From Owenia fusiformis (taxonomy: Eukaryota; Annelida; Polychaeta; Sabellida; Oweniidae): DNA of 64,000 nucleotides. Below are positions 1-47,471 of this stretch, one piece after another. The translations under genes were made by a program, and so were the position numbers. Below the pieces are notes generated by a model. It did no database searches, had not been told where the DNA came from, and saw nothing but the letters and a program-made list of their open reading frames with translations. Positions within the stretch are counted from its first letter, which is position 1. Each line of letters starts with the position of its first letter. The stretch lies in the NCBI GenBank assembly GCA_903813345.2, contig CAIIXF020000169.1, positions 44,614-108,613 on the forward strand, given 5' to 3'.

Positions 1-200
1 ATGTACAATCAGTTCTCAGTTCAAAATACGAAAACATGGACTTGGCGTTGAATGTGTCATATTAAAGTATTATATCACAAATCGTTAATCTAATTCGGAT
101 CTAATTAATCCCCTTTTGGGGATTATGTATTCTCACAGATTTGGGGTTACTTTGACTCACCGTGTGTGGTTCATCCTCAACCAAGTGGTCTAGCGTTCCA

Positions 201-1380
201 ACATTTTATAAATGGTATTTTTCATTCTTTATTTTCTACAAGTGCTAATTCCACTTAATTGTTCTACATGTTCTACATGATATATTTTGTTTATTCCTTC
301 ATTTTATAAATGTTATTTTCATTCATTATTATCTACAAATGCTAATCCCACTTAATTGTTCTACATGATATATTTTGTTTATTCCTTCATTTTATAAATG
401 GTATTTTCCGTTCCTTATTTTTTACATGTGCTAATTCCACTCAATTGTTCTACATGAAATATTTGTTTATTCCTTCATTTTATAAATGGTATTTTTCACT
501 CCTTATTTTCTATAAGTGCTAATTCCACTCAACTGTTATACATGATATATTTTGTTTATTCCTTCATTTTATAAGTGGTATTTTACATTCCTTATCTCCT
601 ACAAATGCTAATTCCACTTAAATGTTATACCTGATATGTTTTGTTTATTCCTTCATTTTATAAATGGTATTTTTCATTCCTTAGTTTCTACAAATGCTAA
701 TTCCACTCAAATGTTATACATGGCATATCTTGTTTATTCTCCCATTTTATAAATGGTATTTTTCATTCTGTATTTTCTACAAGTGCTAATTCCACTTAAT
801 TGTTCTACATGATATATTTTGTTTATTCCTTCATTTTATAAATGGTATTTTTCATTCCTTATTATCTACAAATGCTTATCCCACTTAAATGTTATATATG
901 ATATGTTTTGTTTATTTCTTCATTTTATAAATGGTATTTTTCATTCCTTATTTTCTACAAATGCTAATTCCACTCAAATGTTATACATGATATATTTCGT
1001 TTATTCCTTCATTTTATGAATGGTATTTTTCATTCCTTATTTTCTACAAATGCTAATTCCACTTAAATGTTATACATGATATATATTTTGTCTATTCCTT
1101 CATTTTATAAATGGTATTTTTCATTCCTTATTTTCTACAAATGCTAATTCCACTCAAATGTTATACATGATATATTTCGTTTATTCCTTCATTTTATGAA
1201 TGGTATTTTTCATTCCTTATTTTCTACAAATGCTAATTCCACTTAAATGTTATACATGATATATATTTTGTCTATTCCTTCATTTTATAAATGGTATTTT
1301 TCATTTCTTATTTTCTACAAATGCTAATTCCACTCAAATGTTATACATGATATAATATTTTGTGTATTCCTTCATATTAA
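201..1380. repeat. 89-bp satellite array, outer block (left arm)
   Basis: About 13 tandem copies of an AT-rich unit of about 89 bp. Its constant parts are ATAAATGGTATTTTTCATTC, TTTTCTACAAATGCTAATTC and GTTTATTCCTTCATTTTAT. Neighbouring copies differ at scattered positions, but 961-1140 and 1141-1320 are almost identical, giving a two-unit (180-bp) higher-order repeat. The short open frame at 819-1019 is translated satellite and not a gene. Confidence 0.95.
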
Positions 1381-1403
1381 ATGCTTATGCTAAGTCTACA
1401 CAC

Positions 1404-1532
1404 CTCGAACGAGTCGTCTTGGTTACTGCCACTACTGCTGGATTCACCGAGTGCGTCCATTTCTATTGGTGGCAGCGTATTGTCATCGTTATCCCCATCA
1501 CTATCACTATCAGTGATGACACCAGTGTTGAT
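1404..1532 (-). CDS. Candidate internal exon, acidic Asp/Ser-rich segment (left arm)
   Basis: Reading the minus strand, a 129-nt open segment (43 codons, phase 0 at both ends) follows TTTTTGACAATTTTGACAG and is followed by GTGTGT, giving plausible AG acceptor and GT donor sites. It contains DSDSDGDNDDN and then an SSSSGSNQDD stretch, so it would be a disordered acidic linker. Base composition is clearly less AT-rich than the satellite around it. No family is recognisable from so short and low-complexity a peptide. It may be an exon of a host gene or of a transposon, or a chance open frame. Confidence 0.4.
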
Positions 1533-1899
1533 CTGTCAAAATTGTCAAAAATACATGATTTAATCCGCTCTCCTTATTTTATTAACATACAATAGATGAC
1601 TCTGACACCATTGATGTTACCAGTATATTATCCTTGAAAGGATTTCCTATTATCTTTTTAGGAATTGCATATCAGTATAACAAAATGTATCTCAAGACAT
1701 TGAACTTGTAATGTAAATTGTGAAGCACAATCAAAACTTATAATCACATTATCTTAATTCTGAGCATACTGATTAATAGAAAATAATTACCTATTATCTA
1801 ATCTTCCTTTTAAAATACTATATAGACTACATTCTACTTTTAACAACCCTTATATTCTACTTACGCTAATCCCAGTAATTTGGTATTCTACATTATTTT
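1533..1899. other. Non-repetitive AT-rich gap between satellite blocks
   Basis: No coding signal, tandem repeat or inverted repeat is visible. It separates the outer and inner blocks of the 89-bp satellite and lies next to the acidic exon candidate. The mirror copy is 45573-45939. Confidence 0.5.
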
Positions 1900-3545
1900 T
1901 TAATCATTATTTTCTACGAATGCTAATTCCACTTAAATGTTATACATGATATATTTTGTTTATTCCTTCATTCACTGAATGGTATTTTTCATTCTTTATT
2001 TTCAATACGTGTTAATTCCACTCAAATGTTATACATGATATATTTTGTTTATTCCTTCATTTAATGAATGGTATTTTTCAATCCTTATTTTCTACAAATG
2101 CTAATTTCACTCAAATGTTGTACATGATATATTTTGTTTATTCCTTCATTCTATAAATGGTATTTTTCATTCCTTATTTTCTATAACTGCTAATTCCATT
2201 CCAATGTTATACATAATATATTTTGTTTATTCCTTCATTTTATGAATGGTGTTTTTCATTCCTTATTTTCTATAAGTGCTGATTCCACTCAAACGTTATA
2301 CATGATATATTTCGTTTATTCCTTCATTTTATAAATGGTATTTTTCAATCCTTATTTTCTACAAATGCTAATTTCAGTCAAATGTTGTACATGATTTATT
2401 TTGTTTATTCCTTCATTCTATAAATGGTATTTTTCATTCCTTATTTTCTATAACTGCTAATTCCATTCCAATGTTATACATAATATATTTTGTTTATTCC
2501 TTCATTTTATGAATGGTATTTTTCATTCCTTATTTTCTATAAGTGCTGATTCCACTCAAATGTTATACATGATATATGTCGTTTATTCCTTCATTTTATG
2601 AATGGTATTTTTCATTCCTTATTTTATAAAAATGCTCATTCCACTGAAATGTTATACATGATATATTTTGTTTATTTATTCATTTTATTAATGGTATTTT
2701 TCATTCCTTATTTCTACAAAAGCTAATCCGTCTTAAATGTTATACATGATATGTTTTGTTTATTCCTTCATTTTATAAATGGTATTTTTCATTCCTCATT
2801 TTCTACAAGTGCTAATTTCAATCAAATGTTATACATGATATATTTTGATTATTCCTTCATTTTATAAATGGTATTTTCATTCCTTATTTTCTACAAATGC
2901 TAATTCCACTCAAATGTTGTACATTTTATATTTGGTTTGTTCCTTCATTTTATAAATGGTATTTCTAGTCCCTTTTTCTACAAATGCTAATTCCACTCAA
3001 ATGTTTTACATGATGTATTTTGTTATTCCTTCATTTTATATATGGTATTTTTCATTCCTTTTTTACAAATGCTAATTCCACTCACATGTTATACATGATG
3101 TATTTTGTTAATTTCTTTATTTTATAAATGGTATCTTTAATTCCCGTTTTTCTACAAACGCTTATTCCATTCAAATGATATACATTATATTTTGTTTATT
3201 CCTCCATTTCATAAATGATAATTTTGATTCCTTATTTTCTACAAATGCTAATTCCACTCAATTGTTATACATGATGTGTTTTGTTTATTCCGGCCTCCAT
3301 TTTATAAAAGGTATTTTTCATTCCTTATTTTCTACAAATGCTAATTCCACTCAAATGTTGTACATGATTTATTTCGTTAATTCCTTCATTTTATAAATAG
3401 TATTTTTCAATCCTTATTTTCTACAAGTGCCAATTACACTCAAATGTTATACATGATATATTTTGTTTATTCCTTCATCTTATAAATGGTATTTTTCATT
3501 CCTTATTTTCTACAAATGCTAATTCCACTCAAATGTTATGGAGGA
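1900..3545. repeat. 89-bp satellite array, inner block (left arm)
   Basis: About 18 copies of the same ~89-bp unit as at 201-1380, more diverged. A three-unit higher-order repeat of about 260 bp is visible: the variant with TTTTCTATAACTGCTAATTCCATTCC occurs near 2175 and again near 2440 with matching neighbours. Short reading frames at 3175-3396 and 3486-3734 are satellite-derived. Confidence 0.93.
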
Positions 3546-4070
3546 TATAAAAAATGCCAATTTCTTCTTCATTTTTTGGCTTATTTTTTCATACCCCAGT
3601 TTTTACAAATGCATTGGTATACTTTGTTCATGTCTGATTTTCAACAAATGTTGACCCTCCTTAAGCGTCCTGTCATGGTATTTTTCATTCATTTCCTTTT
3701 ACAAATGCGAATAACATCTATATGGAAAGCATGATTTACATAATTTTGGTTTTCTTCTTACTTCTAAAAAAGCTCATTTCAACTTTATTTCATAGTATAT
3801 TTAATTACTTATTTTTTACAAATGCTAATCCCCTTTTACTGCTAATTTTAATGTTTATTTCCTGTGTATTTGATGATATATATTGTCATCTCTTATTTGC
3901 CATGAATGCTTGTTTCCCCTTCATGCCAAATTGCTAAATCTTTACTTTCTACAAATGCTAGTTCAACAAATCATAATGATACATTTTATTTATTCCTCAT
4001 TTTCTTCAAATGTTTATTCAACCTTCATGTCATGGTCTTTTTGAAGTAATAGATTTCTATAGATGTTAAT
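3546..4070. repeat. Degenerate edge of the satellite array (left arm)
   Basis: Scattered satellite motifs such as TTTCTACAAATGCTA and TTTTACAAATGC recur at irregular spacing, so this looks like decayed units at the array edge. The frame at 3722-3937 has no recognisable product. The mirror copy is 43402-43926. Confidence 0.6.
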
Positions 4071-12868: not shown

Positions 12869-12920
12869 AATCATTATTTATTTTTTAACCACAATGCATA
12901 TGGGTTATGTCATGGGAGGT

Positions 12921-21987: not shown

Positions 21988-23067
21988 TATTGGGGTATAG
22001 TAGTTTGATTTTTCAATATATCACTAATCTAGCTTCTTTCCTTGAAAAAACATGAGTTTTGATGTACGTATATCAAACATGGGCCACTGCACTATATTGA
22101 ACCAGGGTGCCGGTGTTACATAATGTGATTTTATGGGCCATCATACAACCACCTCTTGCCCACTTTATTCATGTTTTGGATTACAGTTTATACACAATGC
22201 ATAAACAGCATGAAACAATCATTTCTACTTGTGGATTAGATTTGTATACATCTCTTTGTGAACTGAGTGTTATGTTCAATATGTGAAAATATCATGGACT
22301 TAAATTGTACTTATATTTATAACCTGACCATATTTGCATATGTTCAACAACTGACTGAGTCACTGGCATGTAGCGATTATAGCGGTCCTGTCTTGGCTTA
22401 TTGAATTGTTACGAAGTTACGTATGCGGTGTGGAAGTTAGAGAGCAAATGACCATCATTTCAATGTAATAGTTTATGCAGGAAAATTGAGATTAGGCCAT
22501 TGGAGTATTTGTTTCATGCATTTGTAAAACGTTACCCACTCATAGGTCATACTTATCGTTAAACCAATAACTCAAATATATGCCCTTGTACACCGATCAC
22601 CTGTTGAAATTAATACAGGCCGATTTCAACAAATGTAAACGGCGATATATTTAAAATCGTATTCAAGCATGACCACGTCCCAACTTCTTTTGTTTTCTTT
22701 ACAACTAAGCTATGACTGCAGTCTATTCAGTGTTGCGTATCGAACCTTGTTTATTATAAAAATAGTGCAACAACAAGCAGAATTCACACATTTACCTTAT
22801 ACTTATTCTCAACTGAAGACATTGAATTTATCTCTTAGGTTTTACATTATAAATATCTTAACATGCAGAATACGAAAATAGAGGCTTAGGCCCAACTTTG
22901 TATGAATTTTATGAGAATAATCTGATTTTAGAGAAATGAAAAGAAAAATGTCCACACACTACACAAAATATTTATGGTTCCCCGGGAATACGTATGTGCT
23001 GCTTGTATATTAGAATCGTATTCCAGTTACAGAAAGAAGTACATATCATGCTAAACTATATACAACA
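21988..23067. other. Gene-free stretch (left arm)
   Basis: No supported gene or repeat. The 70-codon frame at 22669-22881 is not recognisable. The mirror copy is 24406-25485. Confidence 0.4.
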
Positions 23068-23201
23068 GTTATGCACTTGGAGGTTTTGGATACAGGGAAT
23101 ATCCCGAGGGATACATAATATGTCTTCCCTTGGTCCCTCGGGAAGAAATATTGTATATCTCTCGGGATATTCCCTGTATCCAAAACCTCCAATTGCATAA
23201 C
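23068..23201. mobile_element. 134-bp palindromic MITE, long hairpin (left arm)
   Basis: GTTATGCACTTGGAGGTTTT through GGGAATATCCCGAGGGATAC is inverted at the right end as ATCTCTCGGGATATTCCCTG through CCTCCAATTGCATAAC, a stem of about 45 bp with few mismatches. Both strands give short frames across it only because it is a palindrome. Likely the same family as 12921-12999. Confidence 0.85.
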
Positions 23202-23540
23202 CCCTATATAATGGCCAAGGGATAATCCCAATATCCTGACTATAGGATAATATGTTTATCCCATACCAATCTTGGTCATCTGGTTCACATTGTTAAATCG
23301 TGGAAATATTTTAGAATATTCATGTCCAGTTTTGTTTTCTTGGCCGTGGGCGGATTTTCATGTTCTCTCAAATAATCCCATATTTATTTTCTCGAATTTT
23401 TTATTGATAAAGTGGATGCTCTCTCCCTTTTTTAACTATCAAACAGACCCTGATTGTCTGTGTTTTCTCCATTGCCGTTTACAGTCATTCCGCGAACGTT
23501 ACAAATTATGAACAAATATGCAAGCGGCGATTATGACGTA

Positions 23541-23933: not shown

Positions 23934-24271
23934 ACGTCATAATCGCCGCTTGCATATTTGTTCATAATTTGTAACGTTCGCGGAATGACTGTAAACGGCA
24001 ATGGAGAAAACACAGACAATCAGGGTCTGTTTGATAGTTAAAAAAGGGAGAGAGCATCCACTTTATCAATAAAAAATTCGAGAAAATAAATATGGGATTA
24101 TTTGAGAGAACATGAAAATCCGCCCACGGCCAAGAAAACAAAACTGGACATGAATATTCTAAAATATTTCCACGATTTAACAATGTGAACCAGATGACCA
24201 AGATTGGTATGGGATAAACATATTATCCTATAGTCAGGATATTGGGATTATCCCTTGGCCATTATATAGGG

Positions 24272-24405
24272 GTTATGCAATTGGAGGTTTTGGATACAGG
24301 GAATATCCCGAGAGATATACAATATTTCTTCCCGAGGGACCAAGGGAAGACATATTATGTATCCCTCGGGATATTCCCTGTATCCAAAACCTCCAAGTGC
24401 ATAAC
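24272..24405. mobile_element. 134-bp palindromic MITE (right arm copy)
   Basis: Mirror of 23068-23201; identical on the opposite strand. Confidence 0.85.
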
Positions 24406-25501
24406 TGTTGTATATAGTTTAGCATGATATGTACTTCTTTCTGTAACTGGAATACGATTCTAATATACAAGCAGCACATACGTATTCCCGGGGAACCATA
24501 AATATTTTGTGTAGTGTGTGGACATTTTTCTTTTCATTTCTCTAAAATCAGATTATTCTCATAAAATTCATACAAAGTTGGGCCTAAGCCTCTATTTTCG
24601 TATTCTGCATGTTAAGATATTTATAATGTAAAACCTAAGAGATAAATTCAATGTCTTCAGTTGAGAATAAGTATAAGGTAAATGTGTGAATTCTGCTTGT
24701 TGTTGCACTATTTTTATAATAAACAAGGTTCGATACGCAACACTGAATAGACTGCAGTCATAGCTTAGTTGTAAAGAAAACAAAAGAAGTTGGGACGTGG
24801 TCATGCTTGAATACGATTTTAAATATATCGCCGTTTACATTTGTTGAAATCGGCCTGTATTAATTTCAACAGGTGATCGGTGTACAAGGGCATATATTTG
24901 AGTTATTGGTTTAACGATAAGTATGACCTATGAGTGGGTAACGTTTTACAAATGCATGAAACAAATACTCCAATGGCCTAATCTCAATTTTCCTGCATAA
25001 ACTATTACATTGAAATGATGGTCATTTGCTCTCTAACTTCCACACCGCATACGTAACTTCGTAACAATTCAATAAGCCAAGACAGGACCGCTATAATCGC
25101 TACATGCCAGTGACTCAGTCAGTTGTTGAACATATGCAAATATGGTCAGGTTATAAATATAAGTACAATTTAAGTCCATGATATTTTCACATATTGAACA
25201 TAACACTCAGTTCACAAAGAGATGTATACAAATCTAATCCACAAGTAGAAATGATTGTTTCATGCTGTTTATGCATTGTGTATAAACTGTAATCCAAAAC
25301 ATGAATAAAGTGGGCAAGAGGTGGTTGTATGATGGCCCATAAAATCACATTATGTAACACCGGCACCCTGGTTCAATATAGTGCAGTGGCCCATGTTTGA
25401 TATACGTACATCAAAACTCATGTTTTTTCAAGGAAAGAAGCTAGATTAGTGATATATTGAAAAATCAAACTACTATACCCCAATACTGTAGCCCGTATTT
25501 C

Positions 25502-25702
25502 TTTAAAAGGAATACAGGCTACAGTGAAGTTGCAAATGGAGGACCTTTGTTTATTTCCATAGTTCTGGAGGAATACTAGATTTTACATTGTATAGATTCA
25601 TCGAGCAGTTTGCAACGCACTATCACCAGAAAAGTCCTATGGAAAAGGACAAAGAATACCCGCTCTATTTGCAACTTAACTGTACCCTGTATTCTTTTTA
25701 AA
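25502..25702. mobile_element. 201-bp MITE (right arm copy)
   Basis: Mirror of 21771-21971. Confidence 0.8.
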
Positions 25703-26522
25703 TGTGTTCACGTGGTAGGGTAGTGTGATACTCCCTCTGCCTATGCCTACATCGTTCAATCTTTTTTTCATAGTATAACGCCTTATTAATACAACAGTTA
25801 TTGAGTTGTTAAGAAAACATACTAACAAACAAACCACCGAGTTTAGAGTAAGACATATACATGTATTGTTCTATTATCAAATCATATATTGTGTCCCAAT
25901 TCTAAAACGTTAACAGTTTATGGTGTACAATAAAACTATTACTATTAACCACTTTAATATATTTAGACATAAAATATCAAGTTACTCATCAGCCAACAAA
26001 TCTCAAAATATCGAAAAATGAAAAATACGAGGTACTTGTTCACTCAAATCTAGGAGTCAATTGGTAATGTGTACCTATAGATAGTTCTCAAAGTAAATGA
26101 GCAAAAGCGTAACATTTGTATGTAGCATGCTTCATAAAACACTAAACTTAGCCCAAAAAGTAAGCGTGCATTTTGTTCCTGGCACTGATTGGTTAATAAG
26201 TGAATACAATTCGTTGAATGCACGATGCACTCAAAAGATTAGCAGCTGGGAAAGGCTATTGAACAAAAAGTACGCTTTCGTACTCAAAAAAGGATTACCC
26301 TTTTACAACTTTGACAACTTTGAAGCATGAACTTCGGAAGATCTAACGAAATGTACTTACTGTTACCCTGTGGATCCCAGGGTTTTGATATGTTCTACAA
26401 AGTCATGCAAAGACAGACCATATATGCACTAAAAATATCTGTGACACTTGTATGATATGTATTCCACTTTGAACCACCATCTATTTCAATATTGTGAAAA
26501 TATATATTTCCCAAATTATGAA

Positions 26523-26948
26523 ATAAAGGAGCTTGTATTCGCGAATGCCGCTAACGCCTGTCGGCTACCGGATAAACCTACTTTACTATTTTATGGGCAA
26601 TTCATTAAAATATCAATGGAATATTGTCAGGTTCTTTTCATATTTAAATGAGTCGCCCATAGAATGGTAGGTTAATCCGGAAGCTGAAATCTTCCATTCC
26701 CAAATCATAGTCTTAGCTTGTATTCGCAAATGCAACTAACGCCTGTCGGCTACCGGATTAACCTATTATTTTACTGGAAACTCATGTCAATACGAATAGT
26801 ACCTGCCACTATTCCATTCATATTTAAATGACTTGGTCATATTATACTGGGTTAATCAGGTAGCCGGAAGGCGTTAGTTGCATTCGCGAATATAAGGTTA
26901 GCTTGTATTCAATAATGCAAGAAACGCCTGTCGGCTACCGGATTAAAC
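26523..26948. repeat. CCGGTAGCCGACAGGCG palindromic modules (right arm copy)
   Basis: Mirror of 20525-20950, three inverted module copies with the same spacing. Confidence 0.8.
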
Positions 26949-28386
26949 TACCTCTGGAGACATCGGGATTTTAAAGCGGCGTGCAAAGCGTAATCGGGTA
27001 CACCCCAGTTCTCCGAAACCCAGTTGTCCGAAACCCATTACTCCGAAAAATAAAGTCATAATTTACCAGAGAAAGCGGGGGGCGTAGCTTACTTAAACTT
27101 ACGTCAGTTTCATGCCATGTATTTGGCCAAATTAATGGCATGGACGCATTCTGTTATTCATAGATCTCTCTCTCACTTTGAATTGCATCCATTGCATGGC
27201 GTTACCAGAATGGCAGGAACGGGAGATTTATTTTACATTGTGATTCTAAAAAAAGGTTATTAAAACACAATATATATTACGGAACAGTTTATCTTATCTT
27301 CTTCAATCTCTTTTATATAGGCAAAATAAAATGAAACATTTTGAAACAGATAAAATAATTTATCGCATAGAACTTTAAGAATAAAACAGTATACAAATTA
27401 CGTTGTCGAAATATTTCGTCGCATTTAATTTCTTAGTCTCGGTCTCTTATCAAATCGTAAAAGAATAAAACATTCTATACTTAATCACTTGGGATTTATG
27501 TTTCGGCATTCGTTTCAGGCATTTGTTTTTTATGTTCTTCTCCTGAAATGTATCTGTTTGACAATAATCAGAGAAAGTGCGTATACGTATAAATATGCCA
27601 CGCAAACAAACGGGTGTGACTTCAATTTCTTGTCTGTCTGAGGACGTATTGGGAACGAGGTAGAATTAAAGAATTCTTATGAACGAGTCATGCAAGATAC
27701 TAGAACTAGTAAAGTAATGTAAATGGATAAGTTAATTTCTGATGGATCTGGATATAATATATTTCAAAACTTTGTAAACACTAGATAACTTCATTTAGGC
27801 AGATATAGTATCTTGATATATTTGGCTATCATGCGTTTAAAATACGTTCCTAAAACTATGAAGACGTTAGGTGAAAAATATTGCTATTGTACGTTCGAAA
27901 AGTATTTGGTTGTATTTTGTAGTTTTTCAGGTTACCCATGAACTTTCGTGGGCTAATTAACGTCTTGACTTAGCATATTTAGCCTAATTTTGCAATGATG
28001 TCAACGTGATTCAAATGTTATGCTGTCGTGATTCGCAGAGGTTGCGACAAGATTCGTTTTACAACAGATGTAACTATGAGAACATGAAAGCTCATAATCC
28101 TGATTATGCAACCTTATACAATCGTTATCTTTGGGACAAGAGCCCAAAAACAAGGTACTCGTGAACGAGAGTTGAATTTGCTCCGTGAACGATAGGATAC
28201 GCTGTTCCCCACCAACAAAATACAGACATATGCTTCAGTGTCCTCAACGCAGATTGTAGAGAACAAGAGAAAAAATGAAATATACTTTGCCATAACAGAA
28301 TACTGTTAAAGTATTGTTTATTAAGTTTATTAAGTTTCACAAATAACTTTTAAATGCCTTCTTTACCGTCAACGGACACTCAAATA

Positions 28387-28443
28387 AATACACAATACAA
28401 TGCAATGCAATGTAATACAACGCATTACAATACAACTAAATTA
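28387..28443. repeat. Simple five-base repeat (right arm copy)
   Basis: Mirror of 19030-19086. Confidence 0.7.
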
Positions 28444-28462
28444 GAGTATTTGTGCATAGCAT

Positions 28463-28673
28463 TTTCCCCTTTTGTTTGAAGGATATTTTAAGAATAATTC
28501 CAGCGTTCGTACACACCTGGAAATGTCAGGGTTTTGATTTAATTTTCCAAGTGCCTGAAATGTCAGAGAATTTTAAAATAAGGTCAAAAAGGGCCAAAGA
28601 GTCCGGGAATTTTGAAACTGTAGACATGTCATGGAAATGTCAGGGAAATTTGTATCAGTGTTGAAAAAATGAT
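28463..28673 (+). repeat. CCTGACATTTCC dispersed repeat (right arm copy)
   Basis: Mirror of 18800-19010. Confidence 0.45.
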
Positions 28674-28960
28674 GTTCCAGAAAATAAATTTTAGGACTAT
28701 GACAGGATCTCAATGAAATCCAAAATGTAACATTTAGTTGATTCCACACGGGGCGTGTACATTGTCTAACATATATCTAAAAGGTTTACACTGTCTTGAT
28801 TAATGAACTTCTTAGATCTAGTCGCGCTTCAGAAGTGGAAATCCTTCAATTATCAGAGGTTAATGTTTCTAAAACTGTATTGAAATAAACGTACGTCTTG
28901 TTTTCAAACCTACACCTTGCTCCTTTCTGTCGTATTAATAAAGCAAAAATAACATATCAC

Positions 28961-29020
28961 GGTGGGATACGAACCACTCGCCTGGGATTTGGTTATTCAC
29001 TAACACCATAGGCGTTCACC
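28961..29020 (-). other. tRNA-like unit (right arm copy)
   Basis: Mirror of 18453-18512. Confidence 0.4.
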
Positions 29021-29126
29021 TATTCTGGATACAACTGACGAGTTGTATCTAAGTGGAGTCAAAAGCGAAGATCATTCTAAATTGACGCTCGGTATAAATA
29101 TATGATACTTTTATCATCTCACACAG

Positions 29127-29195
29127 GTGAACGTTAGCCTCATGGCTAGCGTGTTTAGCTTCCACTCTCTAGGTTAGTCGATCGAAACCCGTTCA
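29127..29195 (+). other. tRNA-like unit (right arm copy)
   Basis: Mirror of 18278-18346. Confidence 0.4.
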
Positions 29196-29247
29196 TGGCG
29201 AACTTTTTGATTTGCTTGCTGTCAACTTATAATAAGTAGGGCAAAAT

Positions 29248-29466
29248 CCAGAAAAAGTAGATCAAAAATACTCCAATGGAGTATAAAATTGTCACCAGGA
29301 TTCCGAAATTAGACGAATGTTAACTCGTTAAATCTCGGTAGATGAAGTAGGTCAGAAAATCCGGATTAATCCGAACAAGGTTCGGGAATCTTCGTAATAA
29401 GAAGTAGATTAAAAATACTCCCAATGGAGTATAAAATTGTCCCCAATATTCCGAAATACGACGAAT
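29248..29466 (-). repeat. 147-bp tandem duplication (right arm copy)
   Basis: Mirror of 18007-18225. Confidence 0.75.
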
Positions 29467-31323
29467 CGAATCGGCAAACTTCGGTAAAATAATGAAGTGC
29501 ATAAAAACCGAAATGATCCGATGAACGTTCGGATAAAATCGTGAACAGGTGTCAGGGGTTTCCCCTCATCTTTCCCCACATTGTTCTAAAAGCCTTATAT
29601 GGATTTATCACGTAACATTCAAAATGACGTTCCTATATGGTTCTATGGGTTCGAACACGTGACCAAATATACCAAATAAAAATTTTACCTTGACCACTGG
29701 ATGGGATTTCATAAAAAATATCCAAGAAAACCTATCCTCGTGATCCTTAAATCACTTAAATTCGATCATTTTATTTTCACCCCTTGATGGAATTTTATGA
29801 AAGAAGTCATGAAAACACATCATCATGTAAGGGTTTTCACCTAAATTAGCTCGTTTTATCTTGAGCCTTCAATTGAATTTCTTGAAGAAATATTTTATGA
29901 AAAAATATCATCATGTTATGATTTGTATTTAAATAAGACCGTTTCATCTAAATACTTGGATAATATTTCATAAAAAATGCACTTTAAAATTTTTCAGAAT
30001 TTGCCTTAATTTATCAATGTAATGAAAGTATAAGATTAACTCTCAAATAGCGTTCTATTTTAACCTTTTTATTGAAATCAATACAGGACTCGCTCTCTAA
30101 ATATCCAATAAAAATTCAACCCTTGGATGTGATTTCGTTGGAAAAAAAATATGTCAAGTCCAGAATCAAATGATTTGTCCAGAACCTCTTAAGATCCTGT
30201 TTGTATGTTTTCCAGTTTTAATTATGTTGTTTGTTATTGGTCCTAATATGATTATAGGGACCACCAATATGTATGTGACAGTTTTGAAGTTCAAAAAACG
30301 GGTAAAATTGATTAAAGTAAATTGTATATGATAATCAGAGCCGGTGTAATAGATCTAAGTGTCCCCAGTGGCCAGTGTCCGTGGGACAGTTAACCCTGGG
30401 GATGCTTGTCCGTCGGACAGTTAACTCCAAGTTGTAAGGGTCCCCCTTGAAGTTTTGAATGTCCCCTTGGGGACACTAAAAACCACCATCATTCGAAAGC
30501 TAGTTTTTAGTGCCCCCCCCCCTTTATTTATGTATTAACTAATAATGCGTTTATCATTAATAATCATCGAGCACTACTCTGTCACGTTAAATATAGACCA
30601 AATATAACACAATTCACAAAATGTATGTATATTATTGCTTTTATTTGCATAGACATCAAGTGAGCCTACATTAACCTTAATGACTCTGCATCACTGTCCT
30701 CTACTACTAATGAACATAGGTCACATTTTATCGCGTATATGTACTCCTAAATACAAGGGTCGTTCGAATAGTTTTGATGGTCTTAAAAAATGTTTGGTCA
30801 ATTTGAAGCAAGTTGAAATTTAGTCTTGAAAAATTTCGAAATTTGCCCTTTTTCAGTTTTTGAGGTCTAATTTCTCAGAACTGTCGCACAATTTTAATGG
30901 ATAGTCAATTGCTTATATGTGCAGAACCTTTAGTGGAATATATATTCTGACTTTCATCAAAAAATATTGATTTGTAATCATCAACTTTGATAAACTAAGA
31001 AAATACAGTTTGTGATTTAGTTTGATGACCTTGACATTTGACCTTGCAAAGAAGTGGTATCGATATGATGAACTTTTTGAACACGCGTTTCTCTTAAACC
31101 AGTCATCAAAACATTCTGAAAATTTTACACATCGTCCATTTAATGGTCATCTTTTGGATGGTAACATTATAATTTGAATTATATATATAGACTTTTCTCT
31201 ATATTGTTTTAGAAAAACACATCAGGCACTTTTTTCGTTCTTGGTATCATATATTCGGAATGAAATGAAATATCTATCCGAACCTCAATGGAACAAAACG
31301 ACATATAAACACAACGTGTTTAG

Positions 31324-31945
31324 TGTTACGCGGTATATGGCATACATTCATGGTTGCGCGGTATTTGTGATACGGGTGAATATGTCATACTCCCCTGCGG
31401 TATATGGCATATTTCGCAGGTGAGTATGCGATATTCCGCAGTGAATATGCGATACATTGATTTCAGTGAATACCCGATACTCACCTGCGGAATATGTCAT
31501 ACTAATTTGCGGAATATGCCATATACCGCAGGCGAATATGACATATACCGCAGGTGAAAACGTGATACAGAAAGCCTTGATTTGATTGGTTGCGAGAATC
31601 GACTCTAAATGTAAAACTACGCTGGATAGTTAGTGCGTCGAGTACTAATATATGAATCCTGGATTGATTGAGTAAGTTTATTACGTGAGATTGGTGACTG
31701 ATACTTCTGCTAAGTTAATATATTCGATACACAGTACTGTTGATTCAGTAATCATTATAATAATTTATTAAGTTTAACTTGTTCGTTCAATCGATGCAAT
31801 TGACAATTGCGTACTTCCGTATCACGTTCTCATTGGTTAGTGTGTATGCCATATACCGCAGGTGAATCTGTCATACACCGCAAGTGAATATGCCATATTC
31901 GTTGCGGAATATGACATATTTTTGTATCGTGTTTACCGCGTAACA
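31324..31945. mobile_element. 622-bp TGTTACGCGGTA element (right arm copy)
   Basis: Mirror of 15528-16149, with the same inverted ends and the same 5-bp target duplication (TTTAG on this strand). Confidence 0.88.
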
Positions 31946-33023
31946 TTTAGGTCTCTCAATATTGCAATTGTACAAAGGAAACTTTGGTTGATTTTAAATA
32001 AGTATCTTGTTAATGAAATGAAAGGTTTATCTTAATTTTTATCTATTTTAGGGGTTTTGTTTTAAGTCTTTGGATACTTTTTGTTAAATCAACCAAATTT
32101 TTCTTTGTATAACTATAATATTGAGAGGTCTAAGAAAATGTTGTTTATGCTATTTTGTTCCAACAAGGTTCGGAAAGACATTTTATTTCATCCTCAAGAA
32201 TTCGTAAAAAGGAACAAAAAACAATTACATAAAAAAAGTTAACAGAAACAGTTATATAAAATATATATACATTATTTTTGCAATAAATTGTTGCCAATCA
32301 GTCAACATTACATAAAGGACCGTGTTTTTACAGAATGTTTCCTATAAATGGTTTAAGAGAAAAACATTGTTGAATTCAGTTCACCATATCGATACTTATC
32401 CTTTGATAAGACATCAGTGGGTCTTTTTGTGATTAAATAAACCTAAATTTGAACCCAGAAGGTCAAAAGGAAGGTCAGATTTGAGTTCCCGGGGACTTGT
32501 AGATGATTTTTAAAAATAAATTGGTCAATTTGAAGCAATATGACCAATTTTTTTTACGTCAATTATCTCAAAAACGGTAAAATTCAACGCAAACATATAG
32601 TAAGCAATTTGTAGGGAATGCTTATCTAGTTACATTTTAATTCATTGCAAGAAATAATCATGAAATATGAAGACGAAATCTGAGAAACTTAAAAAAAACT
32701 CTGATTTGACCTAGATTTGGCCTTTGACCTTGACCTAGATAAAAATTCCTTCCCTGCCAAGTGCAGCTCGGGTCCTTAGTAGAAGCATATAAAAGTTATC
32801 TCAGACCTAGCTAGAAGTAGGAGAAAAGTGGTTAGGAGGAATAAATAAAAAAATAAATAAAGAATATCTATAAAAACTGGTGGTATCCTTTGAAAATGAA
32901 AAAATGGGCACCAATTATAATAGGCTACAATATAGAATACTACAATCTATTGAGACAATATAACATACAATACGATATAAACGGCGCAGACGGTTAATAT
33001 GTTTCACATGATATATCAATGCA

Positions 33024-33103
33024 GGATTCGAACCTGGAACCTAATAAATACAAACACAATTAATAAATACACATTATGCCAACGCTCATACCATTACGCC
33101 ACA
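33024..33103 (-). other. tRNA-promoter-like unit (right arm copy)
   Basis: Mirror of 14369-14448 within foldback copy 2. Confidence 0.65.
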
Positions 33104-34472
33104 GTGGGAGAGATGCCGATATCCGATTTCGACTACACTATAACTTGGATCCTAGTAACTACAAGTATTAAATCCTATCAACGGGGGACATTACAATCTG
33201 TTACTGGTGTGACAGATCTGAGAGTCTCCCCAGTTATAACTGTCTCCCCATTTTACCCTTGTTAATATAGGAAATAAAACCTGGTTTTCAATGTCCTCCA
33301 ATGGACAGCCAACCCTAGGGATCGGGGTCCTACGAACAAATCTTGCAAGAATCTGAGCACGAATTCATCATGAAAATACAAATATTTTATCAGATAAATA
33401 TCCATGAGAGTTTAGTGGATGCCGGGGCATCGATCGGATAACCAAAGGTGAGAAGATTTCAACAATAAACGTTGAAACGATCGCTGAACTTGTAGGCTGA
33501 GATTCAATCACCAATCGACGACAACATGACCCGCTACATTGGACTAGCTCTTCGTGCATTTTCATCGCGAAATCAGTTTTTAATCAACATTGAATCGCAT
33601 GATTTAATTTATATTAATGACTCTTACCTTTCGAAGTACATTTAATTACATAATATATTGTAACTCTAAAGAAACACTCGATCAGATCATTAAAAGAGAA
33701 CCCCCGATAAGGAGAGCTTTTTAGAAGGACATTGCTTTTTTATTCTGGAAGTGATCATCATGAAAATTTGACACCTTCTTAGAAATGAGGTGAATTTTGA
33801 CATCCTGAAATATTATATTTCAATGATTAAAACTTCCGTTTCTAGAACGTTTTTTGTAAAGCGATGAAATTCAATGTTCTATTTTGACCGTTACTTTTCG
33901 ATAAAGCACAATAAGTTTCCTTCAACTGTACATGCGAAATAAAATATGTCTTGGCTAGATTGTGAAGCAAAGTCTTATTTTCGTAAAGCAATTGAGGGGC
34001 GCAGTACTAGAAGTATGTTTAAAGAATTTTCTAAGAAGTTGTTCCACTTTGCTCCTCATTCTCATTAGAAGAGTCTCGGAATTTCATACCAGTCATAGAT
34101 AGAGGGCGTTTCACAGATCAAATAAGTTCATCTTTGGATAAAACTTGGTCATTTTTGAAAATCATTCAGATGACCAAAATTAGATGTCTCTCCTGGACAA
34201 TCAGTAATGATTATCCTGTGCTATTTTGGTTTCAGGTACATAACAGCTGGATATAGAACTGATGTCCTAGAGGAGTGGGACACATATATCTCCCGCTGTA
34301 TATTCCCTGGAAATGATTTTTGTTCAATGTAGAAATAGTTAAACTGTCCGAATATCTTGCTATAGAATGAATGCAGCAGACGTAGAATATTTCATGGTCA
34401 AATGTTTATGAATTTTTCGAAAATAATGAAAATGATAACACTGAAATCTTCATTTATGATACCGCATGCACG

Positions 34473-34551
34473 TTTTTGAATATGGGGTATACCCCTCGGA
34501 AAATATGATATCCTTTATCATATTTCGCGAGGGATATACCCCATATACAAA
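34473..34551. repeat. Palindromic MITE-like hairpin (right arm copy)
   Basis: Mirror of 12921-12999. Confidence 0.7.
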
Positions 34552-34603
34552 ACCTCCCATGACATAACCCATATGCATTGTGGTTAAAAAATAAATAATG
34601 ATT

Positions 34604-34683
34604 GTCAGCGTCGGGATTTGAACACGAACCTTTCAGACAAATTAATGGGAAGGCAAATTCCAACGCGCTATCAAATGCGCCAA
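34604..34683 (-). other. tRNA-like head (right arm copy)
   Basis: Mirror of 12789-12868. Confidence 0.5.
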
Positions 34684-35283
34684 ACGATCATTGCATTATA
34701 ACAAGAGTCTTAAACTATTTACATTTGAATTAGCTACACGATTGAAAAGCGTATGAAGTCTACATTTTTAAAATCAAAGAATTCGAGCGTTCCTAGTTCA
34801 ACCTCAAGACTGTTGAATTATTAGAGTAGATAGTCCAGGGTGTAAAGCAAAACTAGATCGTTCTCAAATCTAGTAGAAACATATAGTTATTCAATACATA
34901 CAAACATCCATTGGAAGTTGTATCTTTCTTCTTTGAAAAAGTATATTTCAAGATTAATTTATTTATTTTGATATATTTATTTGCCAAAACTTAACGTTGG
35001 CACATGTTTTATTATCCAATGCGTCGACATGCATTGTATAAAATATGAATGAAATAAAAAATCATAAATAAGTTCTTGAAAACAACGTTACATACAAATA
35101 ATCATAATCATGAATTTCTGGGCTGGTACAATTTGGTTAAAAAGCGTTAAAACGCGTTTCAAATAATATAAAATAGTCTTGCCCCATCGTGAGATATCAC
35201 GGCTTTCTCTCAGTGTCCTTCTATAACCATTCTTGTGCATAGCAGAGATGGTCTGAGTATCAGAATGGTCTTGCCCCAGTATC

Positions 35284-35750
35284 ACTGGGGATCCGCTCGA
35301 TTACGCTGATGAACGTTTCGGTAACATAATGTCGGAACCTCGAAGGAACGATTTCTCTTTTTTCCTTATTCCACGCGTTGTAGGCAAAATTCCCATGATA
35401 TTTTTATAAAAAACGCGCGTCAGTATCATATGTTTAAAAAAAATGTACATGTTTGCGAACAGATACTTAGTTCAGAGGACAACAGAACCATGATTCAATA
35501 CCTCATTTAAGTTACTTAAACGGGATGGGTTAGATATGCAGATCCGTTTACGTAACTTAAGTGGGGTTTTAAATCGACGATTCTGAAGTCTTCTGAACTA
35601 ATTGTTCGCAAAGGTGTACATTTTCTTAAAGACACACATTTTTTATAATTTTGGGAATTTTGCCTACAACGCGTGGAATAAGGAAAAAAGAGAAATCGAC
35701 CTTCGAGGTTGCGATATTTTGTTGCAAGCGTAATCGAGCGGATCACCAGT
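35284..35750. mobile_element. ACTGGTGATCCGCTCG foldback MITE (right arm copy)
   Basis: Mirror of 11722-12188. Confidence 0.85.
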
Positions 35751-36044
35751 CATATGAAAAAATCTCATCGCGAGCATTAATGTCAAGTCCTCAGTTAGAT
35801 TAATAGAAATAGAACGTTGAGAACATTAAACGCATCGTTGAGAAATCAAACATATATACTTCAATAATAATTGACGATTTATAAATAACATTGCAATCAA
35901 ATGTAGATTATAACTTACATGATGTATAGTCATACAACGATTTCCATAAATCAAAAGAATAGATAAGATAACCTATACTTTGGCTTGAGGCGCGTATGAT
36001 GCTTATCATACATATTGTAGAAAGTGGTATTCGAAGTCATCCTT

Positions 36045-36057
36045 GGGGGGGGGGGGG
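36045..36057 (+). repeat. G13 homopolymer (right arm copy, one base longer)
   Basis: Mirror of the C12 run at 11416-11427; the extra base is an arm difference. Confidence 0.9.
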
Positions 36058-36352
36058 TATCTCACATATGTACACGTGGTTCTGATAAGACAGACGAATG
36101 AGCCAAGTAGCCTCCTTGATAGAAAATGGTTGATGAAGCAACGAACTCCCAACCAATCGACCATACTTTGACTAATAGCGAGAACCTTGACTCCAAGACG
36201 AACATTTTGGTTGTGGAACATTTAAATCTAAAATATCTCAAGTGCTCTACTGTTGAATGCATGTTAGCATACATGTATATATAAGAAAAAACTATGAGGT
36301 TTGTTTTGAACACTAGGAGCAGACGTTCATATCGTATTAACATTTTTGAATC

Positions 36353-36451
36353 TTAGCTAGCTTTCGCGAATTCAACCACCAGCCGCTGTCGGATCAACCT
36401 CCTATTGTATGACTCATTTGACATATTCAAATGAGTCGAAATAGTTTGTTA
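36353..36451. mobile_element. ACTCATTTAAATA / CCGACAGGCG MITE fragment (right arm copy)
   Basis: Mirror of 11022-11120. Confidence 0.55.
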
Positions 36452-36707
36452 CGCCGTCAACTGATAGGTAGCATTTTACTGTGACATGCTAGTGCTAGGT
36501 AAAATATGGATTCAAATAAATATTAGGAAAGAGGGTTAGCATATGATAACTTGATCAGAGAATTTAAAAAAGAATATTCATTTTACATATAAATCAGAAA
36601 AGCCATTTTTTCGGGATGTTAGAATTCACGTTTTAAGTTAACCTGTTCATGATGGTGCAGAATTATGGTTCACCAAGTAATGGTTGTAACATACGTCGTA
36701 TTTATTT

Positions 36708-36818
36708 GTCAGATGCAGTGTAAAGGTAACAGATATTCTGTATTAAAACTCGACTTCGTCTCGTTCCATTACGGAATTTCTCGAGCAGAATATATCCTGT
36801 ATTGCACTTCAAATCATA
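36708..36818. mobile_element. Small palindromic MITE-like unit (right arm copy)
   Basis: Mirror of 10655-10765. Confidence 0.45.
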
Positions 36819-37164
36819 TAATAACTTATAGTATTTGTACTTATTACTAAAAGTTAACACAGTTACTTGTAAAGTAGGCTCTCTGATATTAGATAATTTA
36901 TTGATGATACTTCAGGTTTCATCGACGAACATAACTATTTTACAACATACGCATTCCCATTTAGTGGTACCAACTACATGATGCTATGTTATTTATGAGT
37001 CATGGGATGCACAATGTGAAATGCAAATTCAGAATTGCATAAATATGTTTCAAAAAGTACAGGTATTATGAAGCGTATCGCATCGTTATGTACTGCAATA
37101 ATGCCTGGGTCACATTTGCTCCGGTGTAACAGATTTAAGTGTCCCCCGGTGGTCAGTGTCCTTG

Positions 37165-37223
37165 GGACAGCCAACCCTAGGGATCGGGGTCCGTAGGACC
37201 CCGATCCCTAGGGTTGGCTGTCC
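37165..37223. repeat. Perfect 28-bp-stem hairpin (right arm copy)
   Basis: Mirror of 10250-10308; loop reads GTA here. Confidence 0.9.
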
Positions 37224-37412
37224 ATTGGAGGACATTGAAAACCAGGTTTTTTATCAACAAGGGTAAAATGGGGAGACAGTTATAACTGGGGAGACTCTCA
37301 GATCTGTCACACCAGTAACAGATTGTAATGTCCCCCGTTGATAGGATTTAATACTTGTAGTTACTAGGATCCAAGTTATAGTGTAGTCGAAATCGGATAT
37401 CGGCATCTCTCC

Positions 37413-37495
37413 CACTGTGGCGTAATGGTTTAAGCGTTGGCATAATGTGTATTTATTAATTGTGTTTGTAGTTATTAGGTTCCAGGTTCGAATCC
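37413..37495 (+). other. tRNA-promoter-like unit (right arm copy)
   Basis: Mirror of 9978-10060: TGGCGTAATGGT then GGTTCGAATCC on the plus strand. Confidence 0.65.
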
Positions 37496-39988
37496 TGCAT
37501 TGATATATCATGTGTAAAATTATTAACCGTCTGCACACTTTATATTGTATTGTATGTTATATAGTCTCAATACATTGTAGTGTTTTATATTGTAGCCTAT
37601 TATTATTGGTGCCCATTTTTTCATCTTCAAATGATACCACCAGTTTTTATAGATATTCTTTATTTATTTATTTTTTTATTCCTCTTAACCACTTTTCTCC
37701 TACTTCTAGCTAGGTCTGAGATAACTCTTATATGCTTCTACTAAGGACCTGAGCTGCACTTGGCAGGGAAGGAATTTTTATCTAGGTCAAGGTCGAAGGC
37801 CAAATCTAGGTCAAATCAGAGTTTTTTTAAGTTTCTCAGATTTCGTCTTCATATTTCATGAGTATTTCTTGCAATGAATTAAAATGTAACTAGATAAGGA
37901 TTCCCTACAAATTGCTTACTATATGTTTGCGTTAAATCTTTACCGTTTTTGAGATAATTGACGAAAAAAAATTGGTCATATTGCTTCAAATTGACCAATT
38001 TATTTTTTAAAATCATCTACAAATCACCGGGAACTCAAATCTGACCTTTCTTTTGACCTTCTGGGTTCAAATTTAGGTTTATTTAATCACAAAAAGACCC
38101 ACTGATGTCTAAGAAAGTCAAAGGATAAGTATCGATATGGTGAAGTGAATTCAACAATGTTTTTCTCTTAAACCATTTATAGGAAACATTCTGTAAAATA
38201 CACGGTCCTTTATGTAATGTTGACTGATTGGCAACAATATAATGCAAAAATAATGCATATACATATTTTATATAACTGTTTTTGCTAACATTTTTTTATG
38301 TAATTGTTTTTTGTTCCTTTTTACGAATTCTTGAGAATGAAATAAAATGTCTTTCCGAACCTTGTTGGAACAAAATAGCATAAACAACATTTTCTTAGAC
38401 CTCTCAATATTATAGTTATACAAAGAAAATTTGGGTTGATTTAACAAAAAGTATCCAAAATCTTCAAACAAAACCCCTAAAATAGATAAAAATTAAGATA
38501 AACCTTTCATTTCATTAACAAGATACTTATTTAAAATCAACCAAACTTTCCTTTGTACAATTGCAATATTGAGAGACCTAAACACGTTGTGTTTATATGT
38601 CGTTTTGTTCCAATGAGGTTCGGATAGATATTTCATTTCATTCCGAATATATGATACAAAGAACAAAAAAAGTGTCTGATGTGTTTTTCTAAAACAATAT
38701 AGAGAAAAGTCTATATATATAATTCAAATTATAATGTTACCATCCAAAAGATGACCATTAAATGGACGATGTGTAAAATTTTCAGAATGTTTTGATGACT
38801 GGTTTAAGAGAAACGCGTGTTCAAAAAGTTCATCATATCGATACCACTCCTTTGCAAGGTCAAATGTCAAGGTCATCAAACTAAATCACAAACTGTGTTT
38901 TCTTAGTTTATCAAAGTTGATGATTATAAATCAATATTTTTTGATGAAAGTCAGAATATATATTCCACCAAAGGTTCTACACATATAAGCAATTGACTAT
39001 CCATTAAAATTGTGCGACAGTTTTGAGATATTAGACCTCAAAAACTGAAAAAAGGTCAAATTTCGAAACTTTTCAAGACTAATTTTCAACTTGCTTCAAA
39101 TTGACCAAACATTTTTATTTAGGAGTATATATACGCGATAAATATACTTACATTTTGTGAATTGTGTTATATTTGGTCTATATTTAACGTGACAGAGTAG
39201 TGCTCGATGATTTATTAATGATAAAACGCATTATTAGTTAATACATAAATAAAGGGGGGGGCACTAAAAACTAGCTTTCGAATGATGCTGGTTTTTAGTG
39301 TCCCCAAGGGGACATTCAAAACTTCAAGGGGGACACTTAAAACTTGGAGTTAACTGTCCGACGGACAAGCATCCCCAGGGTTAACTGTCCCACGGACACT
39401 GGCCACTGGGGACACTTAGATCTATTACACCGGCCGATTGAATATTTTGTTCAATATTGTATTCAATTTTGAACAAATCGGACGGGCGCCGTAGCGAAAA
39501 TCGGAGCAAATGTGACCAGGGCATAAGTAAACGATAGTACACTACAATGCGATATGGGTCAATGTCCTGCAAATTGATGAGCAGAATGGGATTTTCCAGA
39601 TTCTTTGTGGATTTTCTATTTTCAAGAATATTTTAAAAGTAATTGTACATGTAGATACTTATATAGACCCTTTTCTCATAATTTCAGTCATGATCCACTT
39701 CAAATGGGAAATAACCCATTTACTGAGGAAATGTAAAGAAAATCTAAATATGATCTGTTATATCTGAAAATATATCCTATCGCTAAGATATTGAAACATA
39801 TAATAGTCTATATAACTGAAATAAGTATACCACTGAACGTCATAAATGGTTCCGGCATGATTTTCTAGAATCAAGTCACGTCATAAATGGTTTGAGATCA
39901 ACATCGGCATCTTTGAGTTGGCTATGGGATATTTTTATGGTTTTTAATTGTTATGATTGTGTTCGAATCAACTGTAATTGAACTTAGA

Positions 39989-43926: not shown

Positions 43927-45572
43927 TCCTCCATAACATTTGAGTGGAATTAGCATTTGTAGAAAATAAGGAATGAAAAATACCATTTATAAGATGAAGG
44001 AATAAACAAAATATATCATGTATAACATTTGAGTGTAATTGGCACTTGTAGAAAATAAGGATTGAAAAATACTATTTATAAAATGAAGGAATTAACGAAA
44101 TAAATCATGTACAACATTTGAGTGGAATTAGCATTTGTAGAAAATAAGGAATGAAAAATACCTTTTATAAAATGGAGGCCGGAATAAACAAAACACATCA
44201 TGTATAACAATTGAGTGGAATTAGCATTTGTAGAAAATAAGGAATCAAAATTATCATTTATGAAATGGAGGAATAAACAAAATATAATGTATATCATTTG
44301 AATGGAATAAGCGTTTGTAGAAAAACGGGAATTAAAGATACCATTTATAAAATAAAGAAATTAACAAAATACATCATGTATAACATGTGAGTGGAATTAG
44401 CATTTGTAAAAAAGGAATGAAAAATACCATATATAAAATGAAGGAATAACAAAATACATCATGTAAAACATTTGAGTGGAATTAGCATTTGTAGAAAAAG
44501 GGACTAGAAATACCATTTATAAAATGAAGGAACAAACCAAATATAAAATGTACAACATTTGAGTGGAATTAGCATTTGTAGAAAATAAGGAATGAAAATA
44601 CCATTTATAAAATGAAGGAATAATCAAAATATATCATGTATAACATTTGATTGAAATTAGCACTTGTAGAAAATGAGGAATGAAAAATACCATTTATAAA
44701 ATGAAGGAATAAACAAAACATATCATGTATAACATTTAAGACGGATTAGCTTTTGTAGAAATAAGGAATGAAAAATACCATTAATAAAATGAATAAATAA
44801 ACAAAATATATCATGTATAACATTTCAGTGGAATGAGCATTTTTATAAAATAAGGAATGAAAAATACCATTCATAAAATGAAGGAATAAACGACATATAT
44901 CATGTATAACATTTGAGTGGAATCAGCACTTATAGAAAATAAGGAATGAAAAATACCATTCATAAAATGAAGGAATAAACAAAATATATTATGTATAACA
45001 TTGGAATGGAATTAGCAGTTATAGAAAATAAGGAATGAAAAATACCATTTATAGAATGAAGGAATAAACAAAATAAATCATGTACAACATTTGACTGAAA
45101 TTAGCATTTGTAGAAAATAAGGATTGAAAAATACCATTTATAAAATGAAGGAATAAACGAAATATATCATGTATAACGTTTGAGTGGAATCAGCACTTAT
45201 AGAAAATAAGGAATGAAAAACACCATTCATAAAATGAAGGAATAAACAAAATATATTATGTATAACATTGGAATGGAATTAGCAGTTATAGAAAATAAGG
45301 AATGAAAAATACCATTTATAGAATGAAGGAATAAACAAAATATATCATGTACAACATTTGAGTGAAATTAGCATTTGTAGAAAATAAGGATTGAAAAATA
45401 CCATTCATTAAATGAAGGAATAAACAAAATATATCATGTATAACATTTGAGTGGAATTAACACGTATTGAAAATAAAGAATGAAAAATACCATTCAGTGA
45501 ATGAAGGAATAAACAAAATATATCATGTATAACATTTAAGTGGAATTAGCATTCGTAGAAAATAATGATTAA
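43927..45572. repeat. 89-bp satellite array, inner block (right arm copy)
   Basis: Mirror of 1900-3545, with the same unit variants in the same order. Confidence 0.93.
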
Positions 45573-45939
45573 AAAATAATGTAGAATACCAAATTACTGG
45601 GATTAGCGTAAGTAGAATATAAGGGTTGTTAAAAGTAGAATGTAGTCTATATAGTATTTTAAAAGGAAGATTAGATAATAGGTAATTATTTTCTATTAAT
45701 CAGTATGCTCAGAATTAAGATAATGTGATTATAAGTTTTGATTGTGCTTCACAATTTACATTACAAGTTCAATGTCTTGAGATACATTTTGTTATACTGA
45801 TATGCAATTCCTAAAAAGATAATAGGAAATCCTTTCAAGGATAATATACTGGTAACATCAATGGTGTCAGAGTCATCTATTGTATGTTAATAAAATAAGG
45901 AGAGCGGATTAAATCATGTATTTTTGACAATTTTGACAG

Positions 45940-46068
45940 ATCAACACTGGTGTCATCACTGATAGTGATAGTGATGGGGATAACGATGACAATACGCTGC
46001 CACCAATAGAAATGGACGCACTCGGTGAATCCAGCAGTAGTGGCAGTAACCAAGACGACTCGTTCGAG
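45940..46068 (+). CDS. Candidate acidic internal exon (right arm copy)
   Basis: Mirror of 1404-1532: acceptor TTTTGACAG, 43 open codons, donor GTGTGT, here on the plus strand. No other part of a gene is visible nearby. Confidence 0.4.
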
Positions 46069-46091
46069 GTGTGTAGACTTAGCATAAGCAT

Positions 46092-47271
46092 TTAATATGA
46101 AGGAATACACAAAATATTATATCATGTATAACATTTGAGTGGAATTAGCATTTGTAGAAAATAAGAAATGAAAAATACCATTTATAAAATGAAGGAATAG
46201 ACAAAATATATATCATGTATAACATTTAAGTGGAATTAGCATTTGTAGAAAATAAGGAATGAAAAATACCATTCATAAAATGAAGGAATAAACGAAATAT
46301 ATCATGTATAACATTTGAGTGGAATTAGCATTTGTAGAAAATAAGGAATGAAAAATACCATTTATAAAATGAAGGAATAGACAAAATATATATCATGTAT
46401 AACATTTAAGTGGAATTAGCATTTGTAGAAAATAAGGAATGAAAAATACCATTCATAAAATGAAGGAATAAACGAAATATATCATGTATAACATTTGAGT
46501 GGAATTAGCATTTGTAGAAAATAAGGAATGAAAAATACCATTTATAAAATGAAGAAATAAACAAAACATATCATATATAACATTTAAGTGGGATAAGCAT
46601 TTGTAGATAATAAGGAATGAAAAATACCATTTATAAAATGAAGGAATAAACAAAATATATCATGTAGAACAATTAAGTGGAATTAGCACTTGTAGAAAAT
46701 ACAGAATGAAAAATACCATTTATAAAATGGGAGAATAAACAAGATATGCCATGTATAACATTTGAGTGGAATTAGCATTTGTAGAAACTAAGGAATGAAA
46801 AATACCATTTATAAAATGAAGGAATAAACAAAACATATCAGGTATAACATTTAAGTGGAATTAGCATTTGTAGGAGATAAGGAATGTAAAATACCACTTA
46901 TAAAATGAAGGAATAAACAAAATATATCATGTATAACAGTTGAGTGGAATTAGCACTTATAGAAAATAAGGAGTGAAAAATACCATTTATAAAATGAAGG
47001 AATAAACAAATATTTCATGTAGAACAATTGAGTGGAATTAGCACATGTAAAAAATAAGGAACGGAAAATACCATTTATAAAATGAAGGAATAAACAAAAT
47101 ATATCATGTAGAACAATTAAGTGGGATTAGCATTTGTAGATAATAATGAATGAAAATAACATTTATAAAATGAAGGAATAAACAAAATATATCATGTAGA
47201 ACATGTAGAACAATTAAGTGGAATTAGCACTTGTAGAAAATAAAGAATGAAAAATACCATTTATAAAATGT
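46092..47271. repeat. 89-bp satellite array, outer block (right arm copy)
   Basis: Mirror of 201-1380, including the 180-bp higher-order duplication. Confidence 0.95.
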
Positions 47272-47471
47272 TGGAACGCTAGACCACTTGGTTGAGGATG
47301 AACCACACACGGTGAGTCAAAGTAACCCCAAATCTGTGAGAATACATAATCCCCAAAAGGGGATTAATTAGATCCGAATTAGATTAACGATTTGTGATAT
47401 AATACTTTAATATGACACATTCAACGCCAAGTCCATGTTTTCGTATTTTGAACTGAGAACTGATTGTACAT

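Follow-up and report, generated by a model that had tools for sequence, protein, structure and literature searches.

A 74-kb palindrome without a spacer in an Owenia fusiformis contig and its probable origin as a fold-back artefact

The palindrome and its contig

The window analysed here is a stretch of 64,000 nucleotides from the polychaete Owenia fusiformis. It forms the final 64,000 bases (C169:44614-108613) of contig CAIIXF020000169.1 (hereafter C169, 108,613 bp), one of the 525 contigs (498,259,871 bases) of assembly GCA_903813345.2. C169 carries the same ~37-kb arm sequence, designated segment S, twice and head to head with no spacer (Table 1), and the self-pairing of the window is far beyond chance. 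The whole palindrome occupies C169:31227-105471 (74,245 bp). Its arms meet inside a high-copy repeat, element A, and both of them end within another repeat, C. A first-pass annotation of the window had described a palindrome of ~47.5 kb with its right boundary at position 47471. The spacer-free palindrome and its axis stand, but the size does not: pairing continues all the way to the first base of the window, so 47471 simply mirrors the point at which the window begins, and the right arm terminates at position 60858.

The arms had also been said to differ only at three single-base homopolymer lengths, and this holds across the full 37 kb. Arm-to-arm identity is 99.992% over the whole palindrome, with no substitutions and the same three one-base homopolymer differences (T8/A7 at window positions 14619/32854, C12/G13 at 11416/36057 and A6/T5 at 7294/40178), to which the outer 20 kb of the arms add none. 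Length differences such as these are of the kind left by consensus errors. The 95% upper bound for substitutions between the arms is 8.1e-5 per site. A yardstick for this lack of substitutions exists in the same sequence: within each big arm lies a smaller internal inverted repeat, and its two copies have diverged by 64 substitutions in 2,213 aligned bases, whereas the big arms have not diverged at all.

The sequence beyond both ends of the palindrome is foreign to it. To the left lie 5.5 kb of other sequence, a run of 23 N and a 25.7-kb satellite array, while to the right the contig ends after 3,142 bp. There is no match between these flanks beyond a single alignment of 28 bp, made up of 20 bp of residual arm and 8 bp. 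The satellite array (C169:1-25712, left of the window) is composed of ~168 copies of a 153-bp unit with 99% identity and stops at the 23-N gap.

Table 1. Coordinates of the features found in the window (aa, amino acids)
Feature	Window position	Strand	Basis or remark
Left arm, visible part (whole arm C169:31227-68349, 37,123 bp)	1-23736	-	Self-alignment
Right arm, 37,122 bp (C169:68350-105471)	23737-60858	+	Self-alignment
Axis, 10-bp palindrome AGGATATCCT, centre 23736/23737	23732-23741		AGGATATCCT also in 6 unfolded element A copies inspected
Element A, high-copy, 5' 1,376 bp, cut at axis (mirror ~22361-23736)	23737-25112	-	6/6 inspected loci share the 5' end
Element B, high-copy, ~5.1 kb (mirror copy in left arm)	25113-30201		Two overlapping sequence matches
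Internal inverted repeat, first arm (partner 37189-39434)	30340-33337	+	95-97% identity, three blocks
Internal inverted repeat, second arm	37189-39434	-	Partner of 30340-33337
Transposase-like open reading frame (ORF), 303 aa (mirror C169:42177-42650, outside window)	49027-49938	+	DDE_Tnp_4, E-value 2.1e-10
Repeat C, cut at 60858	57848-60858	+	Left-arm copy 1.2 kb longer (C169:30028-34237), as are copies elsewhere
Right flank, repeat D, entered mid-element	60859-63592 (right limit approximate, 63576-63608 across copies)	+	Comparison with copies
Tail to contig end, ~408 bp (C169:108206-108613)	63593-64000	+	Unmatched

The axis and the outer junctions

Copies of element A elsewhere in the assembly reveal what the axis would read if unfolded. 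When 40 of 2,899 candidates were scored, most matched the full query at 98-100% identity. Six of the loci (L044-L049), five on large contigs and one on the small contig C22, were inspected; they are other copies of the element and not an allele of the C169 locus. Each of them continues uninterrupted across the axis position with AGGATATCCT intact, whereas C169 reverses at the centre of AGGATATCCT, and the C169 axis junction is absent from all six. As every inspected copy runs through, this junction is not a natural end of element A. Judged from the same copies, the axis lies on a natural inverted repeat within the 3-15 bp that characterize foldback priming. Centres of palindromes of at least 10 bp account for 62 of 42,555 positions in C169:25736-68300 and for 158 of 70,714 in 12 other loci (element A copies included). 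Because C169 turns at a 10-bp palindrome and such centres are few, self-complementarity probably determined where the fold-back occurred, for example through a 3-bp stem and a 4-nt loop. A longer copy of element A (L046) contains the axis region once more in inverted orientation (positions 3598-3797, 89% identity), and given this arrangement the element may be hairpin-prone.

Across the left junction (C169:31226/31227), the left side of C169 aligns continuously with six of six fetched copies of repeat C (L052-L057). Five of these matches extend to about C169:30030 and one to 30489, that is, 0.7-1.2 kb beyond the junction, so the left arm is in its native context at this end. In the right arm, repeat C lacks its last 1.2 kb and is fused to an internal position of repeat D, 3.1 kb from the end of the contig; a further characteristic of foldback priming is a duplicated arm whose terminal breakpoint is joined to different sequence. 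Copies of repeat D on contigs C6 and C3 (the closest, on C6, is 99.7% identical over 1,380 bp) share sequence upstream of the join that is missing at the C169 junction and present at the second 427-bp unit of D in C169. Since C is cut and the D copies share sequence before the join, the right junction, judged by comparison with these copies, is a non-homologous join of two unrelated repeats, each in mid-element.

Insertion of repeat D into the right arm as a simple transposable element was ruled out, because the junction falls inside D and the remaining 3.1 kb of contig show no return to C, although C could resume past the contig end. The ~408-bp tail has no match in the remainder of C169, left flank included, or in the other loci compared. 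There is no sign of a telomere fusion, as the window lacks TTAGG/TTAGGG runs of at least three units and C169 lacks TTAGGG runs of at least two.

Both repeats have some internal structure. Four of the six fetched copies of repeat C (L052, L053, L056 and L057) have a 198-bp direct repeat at both ends, in the manner of a long terminal repeat, and the C169 copy at C169:30028-34237 has only one. Repeat D is tandemly duplicated on C169 (window 60856-63105, with a direct repeat of 427 bp), its copy on C6 (C6:34953300-34957600, L058) has a self-match of 1,213 bp, and it carries an ORF fragment with a match to QRICH1 below the curated cut-off.

Further copies of segment S were sought in the assembly with three queries. 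A 7.9-kb piece of the arm has only two full-length matches (best 25 of 10,595 candidates scored), both in C169. With 150 of 269 candidates scored, the arm transposase ORF occurs with its score, profile range and ORF length only twice, again both times in C169. For the outer 2 kb of the arm, full matches at ~100% identity lie only on C169, the next match being at 98% (40 of 3,733 candidates scored). There is no third or allelic copy of S among the scored candidates.

Origin of the palindrome

The palindrome is a fold-back inverted duplication; besides the axis it has another breakpoint, which is non-homologous. The first-pass annotation had proposed a very recent inverted duplication; the geometry (zero spacer, no substitution, one native and one broken end) bears this out, but it does not decide between a real duplication and an artefact. 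We favour the latter and assign it a probability of about 0.6: a chimeric palindromic molecule or read would have been built into a dead-end contig, and, as the event was most likely in vitro, the right arm and its flank would not be a second genomic copy. A single genomic segment S (37 kb) would have been written twice. The end of a strand within a copy of element A would have snapped back at the natural AGGATATCCT, presumably by way of a hairpin like that suggested above, and would then have been extended along itself, giving an inverted copy with zero spacer. The copied arm would stop where repeat C joins mid-repeat D, 3.1 kb before the contig end. What was assembled would have been a palindromic library molecule or read, either self-primed or chimeric.

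Four features tip the balance towards an artefact: the arms meet with zero spacer, they differ by no substitution at all, the contig is small, and the copied arm runs into a dead-end join. The second half of the palindrome repeats the first in reverse complement, with zero spacer and 0 substitutions, and little or no spacer is the mark of a fold-back artefact. A chimeric dead end would be expected to show a join of this type, which cuts both repeats 3.1 kb from the end of the contig. C169 does not belong to the large contigs C1-C12; of 15 smaller contigs sized, 12 (C169 itself not being one of them) have lengths in whole thousands of bases and look like cut debris. The earlier concern that one arm might be absent from the genome was a fair one, but the suspect is the right arm, with its broken and fused junction, and not the left, which runs on natively.

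Artefacts of this form are known from long reads. In the available portions of the papers describing Breakinator (PMC12870357) and Pacasus (PMC6218980), fold-back reads consist, like C169, of a sequence and its near-perfect reverse complement, often with nothing between them. The former portion puts such reads at ~0.55-0.6% of Oxford Nanopore Technologies genomic reads, with fewer than half of those flagged having more than 11 bp between the halves, and the latter traces palindromic reads to missed SMRTbell adapters and holds whole-genome amplification responsible for the numerous inverted duplications of a published gorilla Y assembly. In the parts available of PMC8848313 and PMC6977585, missed adapters are mentioned only as a read artefact. 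C169 differs from these cases in its 37-kb arms within an assembled contig, its axis on a natural 10-bp palindrome and its extra join at one arm end. No paper dedicated to palindromic contigs as misassemblies was present among the literature matches listed, and none on bivalve or mollusc palindromes was evident there by title.

Several points weigh against an artefact. First, arms of 37 kb are long for a single fold-back read. Second, folding back at a short natural palindrome is just as compatible with foldback priming in vivo, and an adapter missed at some random end would require no such palindrome. Third, two artefact junctions are needed, one at the axis and one between C and D. Fourth, fold-back reads would be rare if the sequencing was high-fidelity (HiFi), there being virtually none in HiFi data according to the portion of PMC12870357 available, which covers three PacBio samples only. 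Finally, the lack of a single-copy S elsewhere does not discriminate, as it fits an artefact and a homozygous real palindrome alike. If the palindrome is an artefact, it is a clear example of what a false giant palindrome looks like once the whole contig is seen; repeat copies elsewhere reveal what the axis should read, and any use of such contigs should wait for a check of read depth and of spanning reads.

It is possible, with a smaller but substantial likelihood, that the palindrome is a real and very recent inverted duplication in the sequenced animal, either germline or clonal somatic. By this route, a break near the palindrome of element A would lead through foldback priming to a hairpin-capped end, which replication would turn into a palindrome; this would then break inside repeat C and fuse to a repeat-D locus. 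No single-copy S was seen elsewhere among the scored candidates, as such an event would allow, although a normal allele would be expected if the duplication were heterozygous and none was seen in the assembly. Spacer-free perfect palindromes are unstable in vivo, which counts against a real duplication, and the absence of substitutions would demand extreme youth given the upper bound above. The layout, with one native end and one broken and fused end, is that of human inverted duplications joined to translocations, in which the duplication likewise adjoins fused foreign sequence; however, in the accessible part of that study a normal-copy spacer (766-70,466 bp, hence at least 766 bp) is retained at 21 of 21 sequenced disomy-inversion junctions, and C169 has none (PMC3907307). 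A closer parallel for the axis is found in yeast lacking Sae2 or Mre11 nuclease, where, in the text available, hairpin-capped foldback duplications centre on natural inverted repeats of 3-15 bp, a range that includes the 10 bp of AGGATATCCT, and have a second breakpoint fused elsewhere, the broken dicentric being stabilised by telomere capture through translocation (PMC10622511). The yeast events followed an induced break, whereas the C169 case is known from one contig alone. We consider it rather doubtful that the animal carries a 74-kb perfect, spacer-free duplication, one that would have arisen through foldback priming in a hairpin-prone transposon and been sequenced before central deletions of the usual kind set in. 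If it does, a perfect palindrome would have been caught, as rarely happens, just after its formation and with its site of origin defined at single-base resolution, and the yeast hairpin-capped-chromosome pathway would operate in the germline or soma of an invertebrate.

Maintenance by gene conversion, as on sex chromosomes, had also been suggested. An established large palindrome held identical by exchange between its arms would account for their near-perfect identity, and the sex-chromosome palindromes described in the available text of PMC3723533 and PMC8981503 likewise have arm identities above 99%. Such palindromes have a spacer, however, and C169 does not; its axis interrupts a transposon-like repeat whose copies elsewhere are intact, its right arm ends in a raw break, only a transposase was recognised among the ORFs scanned, and C169 is not among the large contigs. 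This origin is therefore very improbable. Still less credible is a collapsed path through two haplotypes, in which an assembler would have walked a single unitig S twice via a false fold-back edge and left by two exits (native C, and C broken by D): arm identity would then come free and the differing outer flanks would be explained, but D is entered mid-element without C resuming in the remaining 3.1 kb, so that this is not a simple insertion allele, and in an outbred animal two haplotypes free of substitutions over 37 kb would be rare.

Repeats and reading frames of the arms

Scans of the window with Rfam (gathering threshold) and for tRNA genes returned nothing. In window 23737-43850, Pfam was run on the 65 stop-to-stop ORFs of at least 60 aa (out of 83 of at least 55 aa), and the best E-value was 0.001, which is at chance level; nine families were hit, with one member each. 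Among 13 ORFs of at least 90 aa to the right of 49 kb, Pfam returned the DDE transposase, QRICH1 below its cut-off, and weak matches (VPS9 at 0.0013 and others). No gene beyond a transposase was recognised in the ORFs scanned in these two regions. The named relatives of the DDE ORF, at 30-53% identity, are mostly from molluscs (chiefly bivalves) and bdelloid rotifers, with two from moths.

Other copies of element B are 95-100% identical, the long ones ~98%. The internal inverted repeats, 3.0 and 2.2 kb long and 95-97% identical, enclose a unit of ~9 kb (window 30340-39434), which, from its layout, is possibly an element with long terminal inverted repeats. A long CA-rich simple repeat (window 48174-48728) adjoins the transposase ORF. 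An AT-rich 89-bp tandem repeat forms two arrays (window 43933-45578 and 46093-47270, with mirror copies at 196-1379 and 1894-3539) that are 86-89% alike.

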